Positions 2,678 to 38,937 of a DNA stretch of 64,000 nt are shown here, in pieces (positions within the stretch are counted from its first letter, which is position 1; every line of letters starts with the position of its first letter). The position numbers and the translations under genes are program-made. Under the pieces are notes generated by a model. It was not told the DNA's origin, ran no database searches, and worked only from the letters and a program-made list of their open reading frames with translations. Origin of the DNA: Brevibacillus sp. JNUCC-41. Its GTDB lineage: Bacteria > Bacillota > Bacilli > Bacillales > DSM-1321. The stretch lies in contig NZ_CP062163.1 in the NCBI RefSeq assembly GCF_014844095.1, forward strand, positions 3,195,501 through 3,259,500. The letters are read 5' to 3'.

Positions 2678-2870
2678 TTTAATAAGGCACAGGGCGATCT
2701 ATGCGGAGGAAAAGGATAAAAGAGAAATAGAAAAATAGTAAAGCGAACTAAGCAAAATCCTAGATTACCAACGCTTATTACAAACTCGAAATTATATATT
2801 TTCCATTTGTTGCAAAAAATGGTCCGTGGAAGTAGGATTGATATATGTTCAAGTCAAAGGAGGAGAAAAA

Positions 2871-3845
2871 GTGAAAGGTTATATTGAGGATATCACTTTT
2901 TTAAATGAAAAGGCCATAAAGTTCGGCAATGAAAAAGTGGAAGCGATACTTGCGCCATCTTTGGGAAGCAATCTGCTTTCGTTGAAGTACAAGCACAAGG
3001 ATATTGAGTTGCTGCGCACTCCGGATAGTGTAGAAGAGTATAACAAAGCTCCCATTTTATATGGAATGCCAATCCTGTTTCCTCCTAATCGAATTGAAGA
3101 TGGTCAATTTACATATAAGGGGATTGTATATAAGTTTCCAATCAATGAAATGAAAAAATCCAATCATATTCATGGTTTTTTGCATGACAAGCCGTGGAAA
3201 GTCTGCAAAAAGGAAGTGAACGGGAAAGCGGTCGTCATTAATACTGAATTTTCAAGCAGCGATTTTGATCTAAAAGGCAGCTTTCCACAAGATATCACTG
3301 TGAATATGTCTTTCTCTTTAAAGGCAGAAACATTGGAAATACAATTGGAAATCACTAACAAGGGCATTGAACCCTTTCCATGGGGAGCAGGTTATCATAC
3401 TGTATTCAATTTCCCATTTGGAACAGGGAGTAAATTGGAGAATTGCAGAATATCACTTCCTGTCAATAAACATTGGGAGTTGAATGAAAGGTCATTGCCA
3501 ACTGGTGCAATTCATGAAACGGACAATACATTGGAAATCCAAAATGGTATTAGTTTGGACGGCAGGCTATTTGATGACCTATTTGGCTATGATGAGGAAA
3601 GAGCGCTGGAAAACGAGTGCATACTTACTGACCAAGAGGCTGGAATGCAGGTCATCTATCATGTCGATCGACATTTTAAGTTTTGGGTATTGTTCAACCA
3701 GGAGGGGTTTGTCTGTCCTGAACCATATACATGGGTAACGAATGCTCCTAATTTGGATTTGTCTGCAAAAATGACTGGATTGCGGGAGTTATGCTCAGGG
3801 GAAACGGTTCAGCTGAAAACTAGATTGATTATGAAAGATATATAA
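2871..3845 (+). CDS. Aldose 1-epimerase (galactose mutarotase-like) family protein
   Basis: I choose the GTG start at 2871 because AAAGGAGG lies seven bases upstream; an alternative start at 2826 has no such site. The 324-residue beta-sandwich protein carries the family hallmarks SNHIHGFLHDKPW (about residue 97) and GAGYHTVFNFPFG (about 173), which supply the two conserved His residues. Family members interconvert alpha and beta anomers of hexoses or bind related sugars. No sugar-catabolic gene lies alongside, so the substrate is open. A shared bidirectional terminator separates it from the converging antiporter gene. Confidence 0.8.
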   Translation: MKGYIEDITFLNEKAIKFGNEKVEAILAPSLGSNLLSLKYKHKDIELLRTPDSVEEYNKAPILYGMPILFPPNRIEDGQFTYKGIVYKFPINEMKKSNHIHGFLHDKPWKVCKKEVNGKAVVINTEFSSSDFDLKGSFPQDITVNMSFSLKAETLEIQLEITNKGIEPFPWGAGYHTVFNFPFGTGSKLENCRISLPVNKHWELNERSLPTGAIHETDNTLEIQNGISLDGRLFDDLFGYDEERALENECILTDQEAGMQVIYHVDRHFKFWVLFNQEGFVCPEPYTWVTNAPNLDLSAKMTGLRELCSGETVQLKTRLIMKDI

Positions 3846-32814: not shown

Positions 32815-33627
32815 ATGAATTGTGGTGAATTACTTATCATTGGAGGGGCAGAGGATAAGTGCCTTGAAGGTGAAGTATTAAATAAATTTGTCGAGCTTGC
32901 AGCCCATAACGACGGCGGAATAGGAATATTGCCTTCAGCAAGTGAAATTCCTGAGGAAGTGAGTGCAGAGTATATCAAGATCTTCAGGGATTTAGGCGTG
33001 AACAGGGTGGAAGTGATCAAGCTGGATTCAAGGCAGGATGCAGACGATCCAGAAATTTGTGAACAGCTGAAATCTTTTTCAGCTATCTTCATTTCAGGGG
33101 GAAACCAAAGCCGATTATCTGAACTGATTGGTAAAACCAAGTTCCACGATGCCCTTTCTAAAGCCTGGCATAAAGGAATGGTGATAGCAGGGACAAGTGC
33201 TGGCGCTTCGATTTTAGGTAAGTATATGATCGTCGCTGCTGACACGATGCTGAATGACAATAAATTAAAGGTTGAAATTGGAGTAGGTTTCGGCTTCCTT
33301 GACGGCCTGATAATCGATCAACATTTTTCCCAGCGTGGCCGCTTTGACCGTCTGTTAAGTGCGATAGCAGGGAAAAAAGAAATTATGGGTATTGGCATTG
33401 ATGAAAATACAGCAATTTTAGTTAAAGACGGTCATTTTGAAGTTGTAGGCCAACATCAAGTATTGGTTCTTGATGGCAGCACCAGTGATTATATCAGTAT
33501 CACAACTTCTGATAATGGCAGTGAAGAGTTGACTCTTTCGGGATTTAACCTTCATGCCCTAACAAGAGGATACCGTTTTGACCTGCTTACCAGGAAATTG
33601 TTGATGAAAAAGGGGATCCAACAATGA
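32815..33627 (+). CDS. cphB: Cyanophycinase CphB
   Basis: A 270-residue serine peptidase of family S51 that degrades cyanophycin to beta-Asp-Arg dipeptides. It shows IIGGAEDK at the start, FISGGNQSRL, the nucleophile in AGTSAGASIL (about 128) and DQHFSQRGR with the active-site His. AAAGGTGAG lies nine bases before the ATG. It has no signal peptide, so it acts in the cytoplasm. The gene overlaps cphA by four bases (ATGA). A dipeptidase completing degradation is not obvious here, though peptidases lie nearby. Confidence 0.93.
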   Translation: MNCGELLIIGGAEDKCLEGEVLNKFVELAAHNDGGIGILPSASEIPEEVSAEYIKIFRDLGVNRVEVIKLDSRQDADDPEICEQLKSFSAIFISGGNQSRLSELIGKTKFHDALSKAWHKGMVIAGTSAGASILGKYMIVAADTMLNDNKLKVEIGVGFGFLDGLIIDQHFSQRGRFDRLLSAIAGKKEIMGIGIDENTAILVKDGHFEVVGQHQVLVLDGSTSDYISITTSDNGSEELTLSGFNLHALTRGYRFDLLTRKLLMKKGIQQ

Positions 33628-36245
33628 AGATCAATCGAGTCCGTTATTTAAAAGGACCTAATTATTTTGCTTATACACCTACGATTTGCATTGAATTGGA
33701 TATAGGGGAACTTGAACAGAAACCATCTGATTCAATACCTGGATTCAATGAAAAATTGTTAAAGACGCTCCCGAACTTGGGAAGCCATACATGTTCAAAA
33801 GGGTATCGAGGCGGTTTCGCCGAAAGGCTGAGAAAAGGAACATGGATGGGACATATATTGGAGCATATGACGATTGAGCTTCAAAACTTGGCCGGAATCG
33901 AAGCCATTCGTGGAAAAACGATAATGATGGAAAAAAAAGGTGTTTATTATGTTACCTTTGACTATCAGGAGCCTCACTCAGGTTTTCAAGCTTTTTTAGC
34001 AGCAAAAGATATCGTGGAAGCCATCCTGAGTGGTGAAAAACTTATAAATGTTCAATCTTATGTAAAACAAATAGAGCAGTTATATTATAAAAATAAACTG
34101 GGGCCAAGTACCGAAGCCATTTTTAAGGCAGCGCAGGCAAAAGATATCCCTGTCGAGCGAATGGGTGATGAAAGCTTACTGCGTTTAGGAACCGGTACAA
34201 GGCAGAAGTATGTCCAGGCAACAATATCTAGCCAAACTTCGAATATTGCGGTTGAGAATTCATGTGACAAATCATTGACCAAATCAATTTTAAGAGGATG
34301 TGGCCTCCCTGTACCTGAAGGGGAAGTTGCCCATTCAATTGAAGATATCTTTGCCTCGGCGGACAGGCTGGGTTTTCCACTGGTCATAAAACCGTATAAT
34401 GGAAGACAGGGGCAAGGTGTCATCACTCATATCAAAAATAAGGATGAGCTATTCAATGTAATTAATTGTTTGGAGTTGCATGTGGAGAAGTACATAGTCG
34501 AACGGCATATTGAAGGACATGATTATCGGTTACTGATAGTCAACGGAGAACTTATCGCCGCTAGTTTGAGGCTTCCTCCCTATGTTATTGGAAACGGTAA
34601 GGAAACGATACGCAGTTTGATAGAAAAGGAAAATTGTAATGAGTTGCGGGGAGAAGGTCATGAAAAGCCGATGTCAAAAATCCCGCTTACACATACCGTG
34701 ACATGCTACTTGGAAAAATCGAATCGGACGCTCGAAACCATTCCGAATCAAGGGGAATTGGTTCAAGTTGTGGGCAATGCAAATCTTTCGACTGGTGGAA
34801 AGGCAATCGATGTAACGGACCAGGTTCACCCCACCATAAAAAATATGGCTGTTGCTGCCGCGAAAGCGATTGGTTTGGATATAGCCGGAATAGATTTTAT
34901 CTGTGAGGATATATCAAAGCCAATCGAACATTCAAGGACTGCGATTATTGAAGTGAATGCTGCACCGGGAATTCGAATGCATCATTATCCGAGTGAAGGA
35001 AAAAAAAGGGATGTAGGCAAAGCCATTGTCGATTACTTATTTCCGACTAGGGAAGAGGCTGCTATACCGATCATCGCAGTGACCGGAACAAATGGAAAGA
35101 CGACAACGACGCGATTGGTTCATTATTTTCTTACTAATGAAAAAACAAAGGTTGGCATGACAAATTCTGATGGAGTATATATCGGCGATGAGGTATTGGA
35201 TCAAGGTGACTGCAGTGGCCCTGTCAGTGCAAGAATGGTATTGGCCCATCCTGAAGTTGATGTAGCCGTATTGGAAACGGCCCGGGGCGGAATTCTGCGT
35301 GAAGGTCTGGCTTTTCGGAAATGTGATGTGGGGATCATCACCAATGTAAGTGAGGATCACCTCGGCCGTGATGGAATCGATACATTGGATGATCTCATAA
35401 AATTAAAGAGGCTGATTGCCGAAGTCGTAATGAAAACAGGTTATTGTGTGCTGAATGCAGATGATCCGAATGTAGCTGCCATGAACGCCTATACAGATGG
35501 GGAGGTCATTTACACCTCTACAGATGCCACCCAGCCTCATGTTAAGGCTGCGATTAATGGTGGATGTAAAGTTTGGTTCGTCAATGAACAAGGCGTGATT
35601 TGTCATTCATCTGATGGAGTCATCCATCCATTCATGGATTGCACCGTTATTCCAATTACGATTTCCGGCATGGCACGTCATAATATCGCCAATTTACTTC
35701 AGGCGTTAGCCGCAGCCGAAACACAAGGCGTTTCAATGGAAGAACTAAGAAGGAAGGCTGCCACATTTATGCCTGATACGAATTTGTCCAAAGGACGTTT
35801 CAATTTAAAGAAGTTGAAAGAGCGCACGATCATCATCGACTATGCTCATAATGAAGCTGGATTGAAGGCTATATTCGAAACGGTCAGTGCCTATAATAAA
35901 AATCGTCTAATCACTGTTTTGGCAGGACCAGGGGATCGTATTAATGAAGAGCTTACCAGGCTCTCCAAGGTGGCGGCCATGAATTCTGATCTATTCATCA
36001 TTAAAGAAGATGATGATTTACGTGGAAGGGAACCGTTCGAAGTAGCCGGGCTGCTTCAGGAAGCTGCCGTAGAAGCTGGGTTACAGAAAAATCGGATATT
36101 CATCGAACCTAATGAATTGGACGCATTCATAAAAGCCTGGGAAACATCACAACCGGGTGACCTATTATTGTTCTTTTACACGGATTTCGAATATGTAGAG
36201 AGTTTTTTCGAAAAGGTTTCAACAAATCCATTGCCGAAGAAATAA
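33624..36245 (+). CDS. cphA: Cyanophycin synthetase CphA
   Basis: An 873-residue enzyme that builds multi-L-arginyl-poly-L-aspartate from Asp and Arg with ATP. It has an N-terminal family domain (about 1-210), an ATP-grasp domain (about 215-475; VIKPYNGRQGQGV, IDFICEDISK, EVNAAPGIRMHHYPS) and a Mur-ligase-like domain (about 480-865) with P-loop VTGTNGKTTTTR. The length is standard for CphA1 and no frame break is visible. Coupled to cphB, it forms a nitrogen-reserve module. Confidence 0.95.
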   Translation: MKINRVRYLKGPNYFAYTPTICIELDIGELEQKPSDSIPGFNEKLLKTLPNLGSHTCSKGYRGGFAERLRKGTWMGHILEHMTIELQNLAGIEAIRGKTIMMEKKGVYYVTFDYQEPHSGFQAFLAAKDIVEAILSGEKLINVQSYVKQIEQLYYKNKLGPSTEAIFKAAQAKDIPVERMGDESLLRLGTGTRQKYVQATISSQTSNIAVENSCDKSLTKSILRGCGLPVPEGEVAHSIEDIFASADRLGFPLVIKPYNGRQGQGVITHIKNKDELFNVINCLELHVEKYIVERHIEGHDYRLLIVNGELIAASLRLPPYVIGNGKETIRSLIEKENCNELRGEGHEKPMSKIPLTHTVTCYLEKSNRTLETIPNQGELVQVVGNANLSTGGKAIDVTDQVHPTIKNMAVAAAKAIGLDIAGIDFICEDISKPIEHSRTAIIEVNAAPGIRMHHYPSEGKKRDVGKAIVDYLFPTREEAAIPIIAVTGTNGKTTTTRLVHYFLTNEKTKVGMTNSDGVYIGDEVLDQGDCSGPVSARMVLAHPEVDVAVLETARGGILREGLAFRKCDVGIITNVSEDHLGRDGIDTLDDLIKLKRLIAEVVMKTGYCVLNADDPNVAAMNAYTDGEVIYTSTDATQPHVKAAINGGCKVWFVNEQGVICHSSDGVIHPFMDCTVIPITISGMARHNIANLLQALAAAETQGVSMEELRRKAATFMPDTNLSKGRFNLKKLKERTIIIDYAHNEAGLKAIFETVSAYNKNRLITVLAGPGDRINEELTRLSKVAAMNSDLFIIKEDDDLRGREPFEVAGLLQEAAVEAGLQKNRIFIEPNELDAFIKAWETSQPGDLLLFFYTDFEYVESFFEKVSTNPLPKK

Positions 36246-36313: not shown

Positions 36314-36493
36314 ATGGCTGCTAGTCTCAGCTTGGTACGTATAGGTACTAAAAGCATTCATAGTTTAAAACAAGAGATCTCAAAAAGTAAGAATGAAGAA
36401 GTACGTTTTTGGGCTAGTTGGGCTTTAGCCATGATTGATTCGAGTGAAATCGATAAAGATTCAATAGCAATCCTAGTCAAGTTCATTAATTAA
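36314..36493 (+). pseudogene. HEAT-repeat protein fragment (plus strand)
   Basis: A 59-codon frame (MAASLSLVRIGTKSIHSLKQ...) reads like one HEAT repeat: TKSIHSLKQEI, NEEVRFWASWALAMID. It has no ribosome binding site and is far too short for a HEAT protein. It meets another HEAT fragment tail to tail at 36473. Confidence 0.45.
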
Positions 36494-36961: not shown

Positions 36962-37139
36962 ATGCTGAGAATAGTATTTAAAAGAGCAGAGCACTTTGAA
37001 AAGGAATTGGATCAGTATATTTATTACTATAACCACAAACGTATGTAGGGAAAATTAAAAGACCTGAGTCCGATAGAAGATCGAACTCAGGTCTTAGAAG
37101 TTACTTAAACTATATGTCTAACTTTATTGGGTCAGATCA
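36962..37139 (+). mobile_element. Decayed 3' end of an IS3-family insertion sequence
   Basis: The frame from 36962 encodes the C-terminus of an IS3/IS150-type OrfB: FKRAEHFEKELDQYIYYYN, then HKRM, an in-frame stop, GKLKDLSPIEDRTQVL. A hairpin (AAGACCTGAGT / ACTCAGGTCTT) follows. The terminal TGTCTAACTTTATTGGGTCA... (37115-37139) resembles IS3-family right ends. No left end or upstream transposase remains in the window. Confidence 0.75.
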
Positions 37140-37171: not shown

Positions 37172-37957
37172 TTAGCTTTTTTTGATAACCGTTTCATTTG
37201 CAGCCGGGACAGCGGCATGGTCTTTTTTATATATTCGCTGAAGCACGATTGACTGAACAATCATGAATATACCTCCGATCGACCAATACAGCGGCAATGC
37301 AGCAGGAGCAGAGAAAGAAATGAATAAAATCATTGCTGGTGAGAGCAGGCTCATCAGCTTCATTTGTTTCTGCTGTTCTTCCGGCATTTGTCTCATGGAA
37401 ATGACCGATTGGAAGTAATAAATGACACCAGCAATAATCGCCATGGCAATATTCGGCTGGCCAAGACTGTACCAAAGGAAATTATGGGTCGCAATTTCAT
37501 GGGAACCTTGAATGGCATAATAAAAGCCCATTAGAATCGGCATTTGAATCAAGAGCGGCAGGCATCCCATGTTTAAAGGATTGACTCCATGCTTTTGGTA
37601 AAGCTGCATCATTTCCTGTTGAAGGGCCTTTTGTTTAGCTGGATCTTTCGTCTCTTTGATTTTCTGCTGGATTGCTGTCATTTCCGGTTTCAGCCCATTC
37701 ATCTTCGTTTTCATGCTAAGCTGTGTTTTATATTGCTTGGCAGTCAGTGGAAGCAAGACAAGGCGAATCAAAAATGTCATCATGATGATGCTTAAACCGT
37801 AGTTGCCATTAAACAAATGAGCATTAAATTCTAGCATTTTTGTCATCGGGTTAACCAATGCAGTATGAAATGGCCCGCTCGTTGCTGCTGAGCAACCTGT
37901 CAAAAGGGTGGTTGCCAAAAATAGGACGGCAATTAAAAGCATGTTTTTCTTATTCAA
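37172..37957 (-). CDS. yidC2: Membrane protein insertase YidC2 (OxaA family)
   Basis: A 261-residue Sec-linked insertase. A lipoprotein signal (LLTGC, Cys about 22) precedes five helices, the hydrophilic-groove Arg in SIIMMTFLIRLVLLPLT, and the cytoplasmic hairpin rich in Lys/Gln/Glu. It starts at TTG 37957, eight bases from GAGGAGG. That binding site is buried in a hairpin with the end of mifM, so YidC2 synthesis should depend on MifM arrest. The stop codon lies inside a hairpin (37151-37172) whose T run faces the plus strand. Confidence 0.92.
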   Translation of the reverse strand: MNKKNMLLIAVLFLATTLLTGCSAATSGPFHTALVNPMTKMLEFNAHLFNGNYGLSIIMMTFLIRLVLLPLTAKQYKTQLSMKTKMNGLKPEMTAIQQKIKETKDPAKQKALQQEMMQLYQKHGVNPLNMGCLPLLIQMPILMGFYYAIQGSHEIATHNFLWYSLGQPNIAMAIIAGVIYYFQSVISMRQMPEEQQKQMKLMSLLSPAMILFISFSAPAALPLYWSIGGIFMIVQSIVLQRIYKKDHAAVPAANETVIKKS

Positions 37958-37965
37958 TATAATTT

Positions 37966-38004
37966 CCTCCTCGAATTGTTATTGTTTAAACAACGAGAAG
38001 GAGG
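37966..38004 (-). promoter_or_regulatory. Hairpin hiding the yidC2 ribosome binding site
   Basis: On the minus strand CTCC-TT-CTCG-TTGTT (within the last codons of mifM) pairs with AACAA-TT-CGAG-GAGG, the yidC2 Shine-Dalgarno. The loop contains the mifM stop codon. A ribosome stalled before the end of mifM would hold the 5' arm open and free the site. Confidence 0.8.
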
Positions 38005-38273
38005 CTTGGCTCATCGGAATCATCTGGTGAATCCTTGTGCCGGATAAATGTGAAAAAGCGCTGTGCACCGCGCCAGTCAAAAATGTTGCCTTTCTGAACT
38101 GGGGATTTACTTTTATCTGTATGGACGGAAGCTTGATATTTGTCGTTCAAGAGTGATTGCTTTTTATTTAAGAAGTAAAACGCAGCCAGTGGAAAGACAA
38201 AGGTAAATAAGTAACCTGCCCATACCGCATGGCGAACGGTCTGATAATCGAATTCTAATAATAATTCCCACAT
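37986..38273 (-). CDS. mifM: MifM-like arrest peptide sensing membrane insertion
   Basis: A 95-residue protein, the size of B. subtilis MifM, lying 28 bases before yidC2 as MifM does. VRHAVWAGYLFTFVFPLA gives one N-terminal membrane helix. The C-terminal segment QRFFTFIRHKDSPDDSDEPS resembles the MifM arrest region, with an Arg-aromatic-Ile block followed by acidic residues. Low YidC activity prolongs stalling and opens the hairpin so YidC2 is made. The critical Met of the B. subtilis arrest motif is not evident. Confidence 0.8.
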   Translation of the reverse strand: MWELLLEFDYQTVRHAVWAGYLFTFVFPLAAFYFLNKKQSLLNDKYQASVHTDKSKSPVQKGNIFDWRGAQRFFTFIRHKDSPDDSDEPSLLLVV

Positions 38274-38442: not shown

Positions 38443-38937
38443 GTGCATCAATTTATGATTAAAGGTCATATAGAACCTGGATTTGAGAGAGAAGATTTCA
38501 CACATGGTCATTCGTCCACACGGATAAAAGGAGGCTCAATTCATTCGAAAAACAGAACCACCATAACGGTACTGAAAATAATTTATATCAAAATGCACAT
38601 CCCCGAAGCATGGATAATCCATTAAGAAATCAAATAATGGAAGAAAGGATTCTACCTGGCCCGCCTGGTCCGTCCTACAAAGGAGGCCCGCTCATATAGC
38701 TCCGCCTTTATTTATTCCACAACTTCACGATGGAATGTATAAGGCAATTGACGCTGGTTCAATGAATGGGCGCTTTTACCAACATACTTATGTATGGCTT
38801 AAGATTGTCCGCTCATTTTGTTTTTCCCCCAACTTGTCGGTTAAATTCCGTGGCAGGTTATCGATGGTGACGGGGCGACAGCGATGGCCTATTATGGTAC
38901 GGGTGGGCATGAGATACAATCATTTCAATGTTATTAA
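38443..38937 (+). pseudogene. Frameshifted remnant of a Pro-rich small protein gene
   Basis: Pieces of one protein appear in different frames: NPLRNQIMEERILPGPPGP, then MYKAIDAGSMNGRFYQHTYV and WLK, then NSVAGYRW and a final YYG...IQSFQCY before a stop. This order resembles Bacillus proteins that pair a Pro-rich N-terminus with a C-terminal AIDPG...YVW...VG..S..GYRW domain of unknown function. At least three frame changes or stops make it nonfunctional. A further frame at about 39035-39150 (ETLTGLEEFAIPLPNSWLV...) ends in a stop and may be another remnant. Confidence 0.5.

Follow-up and report, generated by a model that had tools for sequence, protein, structure and literature searches.

A probable Peribacillus orthologue of the arrest peptide MifM encoded ahead of yidC2

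The window analysed here, a stretch of 64,000 nucleotides, carries a 95-codon upstream open reading frame (uORF) that is very probably the Peribacillus orthologue of MifM, the monitoring substrate controlling yidC2, the gene of a backup membrane-insertion factor. MifM is the model for how a nascent chain senses membrane insertion, and in the publications consulted the rules of its arrest come from B. subtilis. Our comparison points to Met80 as nearly a genus-level feature, to the occurrence of conserved MifM-like ORFs alongside a ribosomal protein uL22 with Gln90, and to a near-fixed distance between the arrest core and the yidC2 Shine-Dalgarno sequence (SD). The layout of the window's MifM is ordinary for the wider family, and stalling, force sensing and YidC dependence would be expected of it from homology. 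The locus comprises the following features (window coordinates):

37986-38273, minus strand: mifM-like uORF, 95 codons, ATG to TAA (ORF call and profile homology)
38169-38225, minus strand: predicted transmembrane (TM) segment, residues 17-35, followed by NKK (hydropathy)
38007-38060, minus strand: arrest-like tail, residues 72-89 (RFFTFIRHKDSPDDSDEP), with the acidic core D84-D85-S86-D87-E88 (pN/pS and family alignment)
37989-38004, minus strand: 5' arm of a hairpin (CCTCCTTCTCGTTGTT), within codons 90-95 (RNA folding)
37966-37984, minus strand: 3' arm of the hairpin, with the yidC2 SD AGGAGG at 37966-37971 (RNA folding)
37172-37957, minus strand: yidC2, 261 aa, TTG start at 37957-37955, YidC/Oxa1 family (PF02096, E 3e-45)

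The original observation of a 95-residue ORF before yidC2 with a single membrane helix and an arrest-like tail was borne out at 37986-38273 (minus strand), where residues 17-35 form the sole hydrophobic stretch (Kyte-Doolittle maximum 1.74) and the tail (QRFFTFIRHKDSPDDSDEPSLLLVV) contains the acidic core. The charge pattern suggests an N-out/C-in topology of the uORF product. Between the uORF stop and the TTG of yidC2, both on the minus strand, lie 28 nt. The window's yidC2 shares 97-98% identity with its counterparts in three P. frigoritolerans records (L034, L039, L043) and 97% with that in one P. simplex record (L041), and we therefore assign the window to Peribacillus (frigoritolerans/simplex group), a soil relative of Bacillus. 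One further YidC is encoded in the genome about 110 nt behind an rnpA gene (PF00825, E 3.7e-33), a position that we take to be the setting of spoIIIJ.

We consider the uORF a MifM homologue because one and the same leave-out profile, made of 32 rows without any from Peribacillus or Bacillus sensu stricto, matched the window ORF (E 1.7e-5) as well as a B. subtilis-type MifM (L185; E 3.1e-6) and none of the decoys up to E 10; these E values are slightly favourable, given that the rows had been aligned jointly before removal. The same profile reaches E 0.01 for 30/30 ORFs of Bacillus sensu stricto and 27/30 of Peribacillus, and together with the second YidC in the genome this homology upholds the MifM-yidC2 identity that had been proposed from the window's letters. 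No MifM model of Pfam or NCBIfam matched the uORF. A single-sequence search found the uORF in 32 of 61 genomes. Of these, 30 belong to Peribacillus, out of 36 genomes of the genus and with the window's own genome counted. Among the remaining six, two carry a yidC2 with a more divergent uORF and four (G002, G019, G024, G032) have a single YidC and no uORF match. Of the genomes sampled across the order, 83 of 219 match the profile, as do 45 of 100 genera. In one of the two Peribacillus genomes with a more divergent uORF (G015; L206, L207), yidC2 is split over two frames of 101 and 134 aa, by frameshift or assembly error, and is preceded by an intact divergent uORF.

Fujiwara et al. 2024 describe a MifM homology group of 572 sequences from 592 Firmicutes genomes, chosen by clustering together with an acidic window, namely as yidC uORFs with an N-terminal localisation signal, no fewer than 30 aa ahead of the arrest site and a 5-aa window of negative charge within residues 70-100 (PMC10987492). 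The window ORF shares with this group its position as a yidC uORF, homology and an N-terminal TM segment, and four of the five residues of D84-D85-S86-D87-E88 are acidic (5-aa window, residues 70-100); about 53 aa, judged by hydropathy only, separate its TM segment from codon 88, compared to a published median of 54 (PMC10987492). Its likeness to the MifM-YidC2 system of B. subtilis, as described in PMC4423224 and PMC6037786, comprises gene order, two YidC genes, 95 codons and one N-terminal TM segment, and extends to an acidic C-terminal core, an SD-burying hairpin with its 5' arm in the last codons and profile homology. It differs from the B. subtilis peptide by the lack of Met at the M80 column, by R72-F73 where the commonest form has W-I, by DDSDE for DEED and by a uL22 with Gln90 for Met90. 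CliM of Clostridia and ApcA of Actinobacteria are likewise yidC uORFs with a TM segment and a C-terminal arrest region, and CliM also has an SD-masking stem-loop (PMC13183943, PMC7897499, PMC10987492), but by eye neither of their reported arrest motifs (KYxIW; RAPG) is found in the window ORF. Before CliM, MifM was the sole arrest peptide shown to monitor YidC, according to PMC13183943, and our literature search found no published account pairing MifM with Peribacillus.

For B. subtilis MifM, the residues reported as critical for arrest are R69, I70, W73, I74, M80, N81 and DEED at 86-89 (PMC4423224), and the arrest consensus is given as RIxxWIxxxxxMNxxxxDEED (PMC7897499), which the window ORF does not literally match. 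It had been proposed that the window's tail may define a variant arrest motif, and this candidate was ruled out by the family alignment, which places K80, D81, P83, D84 and D85 among the common forms of the order. Over 147 distinct tails, R (90) leads at the column of window residue 79 and K (79) at that of residue 80, and M stands at column 79 in 20 and at column 80 in 4; we report both columns because the placement of M80 is ambiguous by one position, with M80 opposite K80 in a P83-anchored alignment and opposite residue 79 when W-I is also kept. As 123 of the 147 tails have no M at either candidate column, the literal consensus does not define the MifM group. By column, 20/20 and 2/4 of the Met-bearing tails (22/24) belong to Bacillus sensu stricto, the others being L077 and G039. 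The noted absence of a Met80 counterpart is thus real and at the same time ordinary, since M is nearly limited to Bacillus sensu stricto.

At the other columns of the same 147 tails, P occupies column 83 in 84, D column 84 in 73 and column 85 in 123, D or S column 86 in 93 or 20, W or R column 72 in 88 or 22, and I or F column 73 in 69 or 26. The window's K80, P83, D84 and D85 are the commonest residues, and its D81 ranks second to E; the window departs from the commonest form by R72-F73 versus W-I and by H79 versus R. The Ser-interrupted acidic run that had been singled out as distinctive does exist, but it is a habit of Peribacillus, where residue 86 is Ser or Pro (PDDSDEP, PDDPDEP, PDDSDGP). 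In more distant Peribacillus orthologues, with an overall identity of 40-51%, the tail is mostly preserved (RRKESPDDSDEP, RRKQAPDDSDEP, RRKESPDDSDGP), and divergent forms are found in L024 and L025 (RQRSAPDDSDK) and in L031 (RIKQTPGDPDD). The uORF of L021 (genome G006) has an in-frame two-residue insertion in its tail (RQKQKDSLDDSDEP) and a change of P83 to L.

The uORF tail is under purifying selection. Over 19 distinct coding sequences, all from the close clade L003-L023 and with L021 left out for its two-codon insertion, pN/pS amounts to 0.053 for residues 1-37 (the TM part), 0.246 for residues 38-66 (the spacer), 0.051 for residues 67-89 (the tail) and 0.359 for residues 90-95. The relaxed codons 90-95 would fit a stretch where the RNA counts more than the amino acids.

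In line with the claim that the last codons form the 5' arm of a hairpin burying the yidC2 SD, folding of positions 37950-38012 pairs the arm CCTCCTTCTCGTTGTT with the SD region at a minimum free energy of -16.2 kcal/mol. Its fold energy by itself makes the hairpin no more than a modest outlier, because an 86-nt fold of -16.4 kcal/mol (z -1.84) is equalled by 13 of 200 shuffles; the comparative evidence is stronger than the fold energy. Among 28 distinct Peribacillus loci, a set without L032 whose uORF runs past the SD, the predicted probability of an unpaired SD is at most 0.007 in 27, the exception being L019 with 0.168. When the last six codons are randomly recoded with synonymous codons, at most 1.3% of 300 versions do as well in 26 of the 28 loci (exceptions: L024 with 5.3%, L019 with 23%), and codon choice favours SD pairing in Peribacillus. 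We also modelled a stalled ribosome with its P site at codon 88 by removing the RNA up to 15 nt ahead, upon which the predicted probability of an unpaired SD in the window rises from 0.001 to 0.79 and reaches at least 0.65 in 25 of the 28 loci, with partial release in L015 (0.49) and L031 (0.44) and no release in L026 (0.057). The B. subtilis-type L185 has a like layout with predicted values of 0.20 when free and 0.71 when stalled, so that the Leu/Val C-terminus that doubles as anti-SD, though present in the window as had been noted, is not a new trait: the anti-SD end of L185 is also Leu-rich. In a rough family-wide check, 30 loci were taken and 26 measured (no SD was detected in L049, L054 and L108, and L064 had no acidic match), of which 14 have an SD unpaired below 0.1 and 7 are released above 0.5. 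We prefer the Peribacillus set because some SDs of the family-wide check were wrongly picked (L094, L105, L051).

Across the family, the SD core starts a median of 49 nt after codon 85 (IQR 46-52, sd 6.8; 128 distinct uORFs), and the distance from uORF stop to SD has an sd of 41.2 in the same 128. These derive from 191 uORFs examined, of which 174 were measured and 17 were not, with kinship uncorrected. L103 is misaligned in this set, and initially no uORF was obtained from L053, L078, L099, L102, L109 and L110; what lies upstream in L099 and L110 is an rnpA-like ORF, while L102 and L109 had failed the acidic regular expression and were then added by hand. The window's own value is 46 nt from codon 85. 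Long exceptions are the B. licheniformis group, with 69-77 nt and, in L057 and L061, an additional hairpin between core and SD, plus a few others. Where the uORF reads past the SD (n=40), core and SD are 49 nt apart (IQR 46-50, sd 2.9, range 45-58) and the stops lie 16-110 nt beyond the SD (spread 94 nt, sd 17.8). Where it ends before the SD (n=88), the median distance from core to SD is 48 nt with an sd of 7.9, hardly tighter than the stop-to-SD sd of 8.7. What the spacing can tell thus rests on the 40 SD-spanning uORFs, because the other 88 barely separate core from stop, and it suggests that the position of the SD may be set by where the ribosome stops. A near-constant spacing of about 49 nt looks new to us: no description of it was found in the MifM literature searched, which is no proof of its being unpublished. 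The SD-spanning uORFs (40/128; L060, L065, L068, L073, L075 and other Oceanobacillus/Virgibacillus-type loci) often read the SD as R-G-G, and many enter the yidC2 start region in another frame. Within Peribacillus, the uORF of L032/L202 (genome G020) is missing its usual stop and runs for 135 aa past the SD into yidC2.

The window genome's uL22 has Gln90 (RFRPRAQGRAS), which is neither Met90 nor hydrophobic. As reported for B. subtilis MifM in PMC4423224, hydrophobic or aromatic residues at this position are tolerated, K90 weakens stalling most, and efficient stalling was argued to be improbable with R, Q, K or H. Of 37 genomes searched with a codon pattern for Gln90, 23 matched. Among the 24 of 36 Peribacillus genomes where uL22 was read, the 18 with the uORF comprise 12 with Gln and 6 with Met, and the other six have Met; the four genomes with a single YidC and no uORF match all have Met90 (4/4). 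More widely, Gln90 occurs in the first set in 39 of 80 distinct genomes that have a uORF, and in the second set in 18 of 73 genomes (16/69 without four repeats), from which we conclude that a conserved MifM-like tail coexists with uL22 Gln90, a pairing that looks new. It is possible, though we lean against it, that Peribacillus MifM stalls Gln90 ribosomes through lower-tunnel contacts unlike those of B. subtilis MifM, with R72-F73...F76-I77 proposed to replace W73-I74 and no Met80. If this were true, the rule of species specificity at uL22-90 would apply to a single peptide and not family-wide.

A covariation of uL22-90 with MifM residues 79-80 was rejected, as it failed in a second sample under every count. 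In the first sample, 53 of 61 genome entries combined either Met90 with R79-K/R80 or Gln90 with a different pair; these entries include some genomes reached twice and were examined while the idea was being formed, and the ribosomal-protein tree has only 4 changes at uL22-90, leaving too few independent pairs for a test. For the second sample, 75 of the 83 profile-matching genomes of the order were searched for uL22 and 73 were read (all except G051 and G293). Among genomes with Met90, 20 had and 31 lacked R-K/R-(D/E), compared to 11 and 7 of those with Gln90, which runs opposite to the first sample (Fisher p 0.17); four further Met90 genomes with the Bacillus RM form were left out of this test. 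Without the four genomes repeated from the first set (G197, G244, G267, G326), the counts are 19/30 versus 10/6 (p 0.15), and with G236 moved to absent they are 19/30 versus 9/7 (p 0.26), as this genome had first been scored present from an upstream RKD and its core reads KKYERDGDDD.

By extension from B. subtilis MifM, prompt insertion of the TM segment by YidC (SpoIIIJ) would exert a pull that frees the nascent chain, and the released ribosome would reach the stop so that the hairpin refolds and yidC2 stays off. If insertion failed, the acidic core at codons 84-88 would hold the ribosome near codons 88-90, its footprint would melt the 5' arm at codons 90-95, and the SD 46 nt downstream of codon 85 would be freed for YidC2 to be made. 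A simpler coupling would need no arrest of the nascent chain: passing ribosomes would melt the hairpin, yidC2 expression would track uORF translation, and the tail would be conserved for some other reason. The overlap of the hairpin with the last codons indeed means that any translating ribosome opens it, and for uORFs that end before the SD the spacing cannot tell core from stop. However, tail codons 67-89 match the membrane segment in constraint, unlike the spacer, the SD of the SD-spanning class (n=40) varies little in position relative to the acidic core (sd 2.9 nt) but much relative to the stop (sd 17.8 nt), and the uORF is homologous to a peptide reported to stall (PMC6037786, PMC4423224), so that we regard coupling of this kind as improbable.

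Even less credible to us is a degenerate MifM that would have lost stalling through uL22 Gln90 and the missing key residues of B. subtilis, with the ORF persisting as a hairpin carrier only. In its favour are the presence of Gln90, the absence of Met80 and the argument of PMC4423224 that efficient stalling is unlikely with such residues at uL22-90. Against it, a decaying peptide would not hold its tail at a pN/pS of 0.05, and the pair of Gln90 and uORF is widespread, as seen in 39/80 first-set and 16/69 further distinct genomes. An intact MifM orthologue that would respond to failed membrane insertion is the reading that we favour for the window.

A promoter scan gave 7 hits compared to 4.5 +/- 2.5 in shuffles, and we claim no promoter; two Rfam matches near E 0.8 were far under the gathering scores and were dismissed. 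Just past the 3' end of yidC2, on the opposite strand, lies the remnant of a transposase end (about 36971-37105, plus strand) with an rve_2 match of E 1e-10 and an X at an internal stop. A short ORF at 36314-36493 (plus strand) with a weak HEAT-repeat match below the cut-off (PF13646, E 4e-4) adjoins a cyanophycin synthetase-like gene at 33624-36245. Upstream of mifM on the other strand, positions 38747-38929 (plus strand, approximate) have a fragmented coding similarity, by eye, to an ORF of L202 and look like a pseudogene; the counterpart in L202 is an intact, Gly/Pro-rich ORF of 146 aa at 2834-3274.
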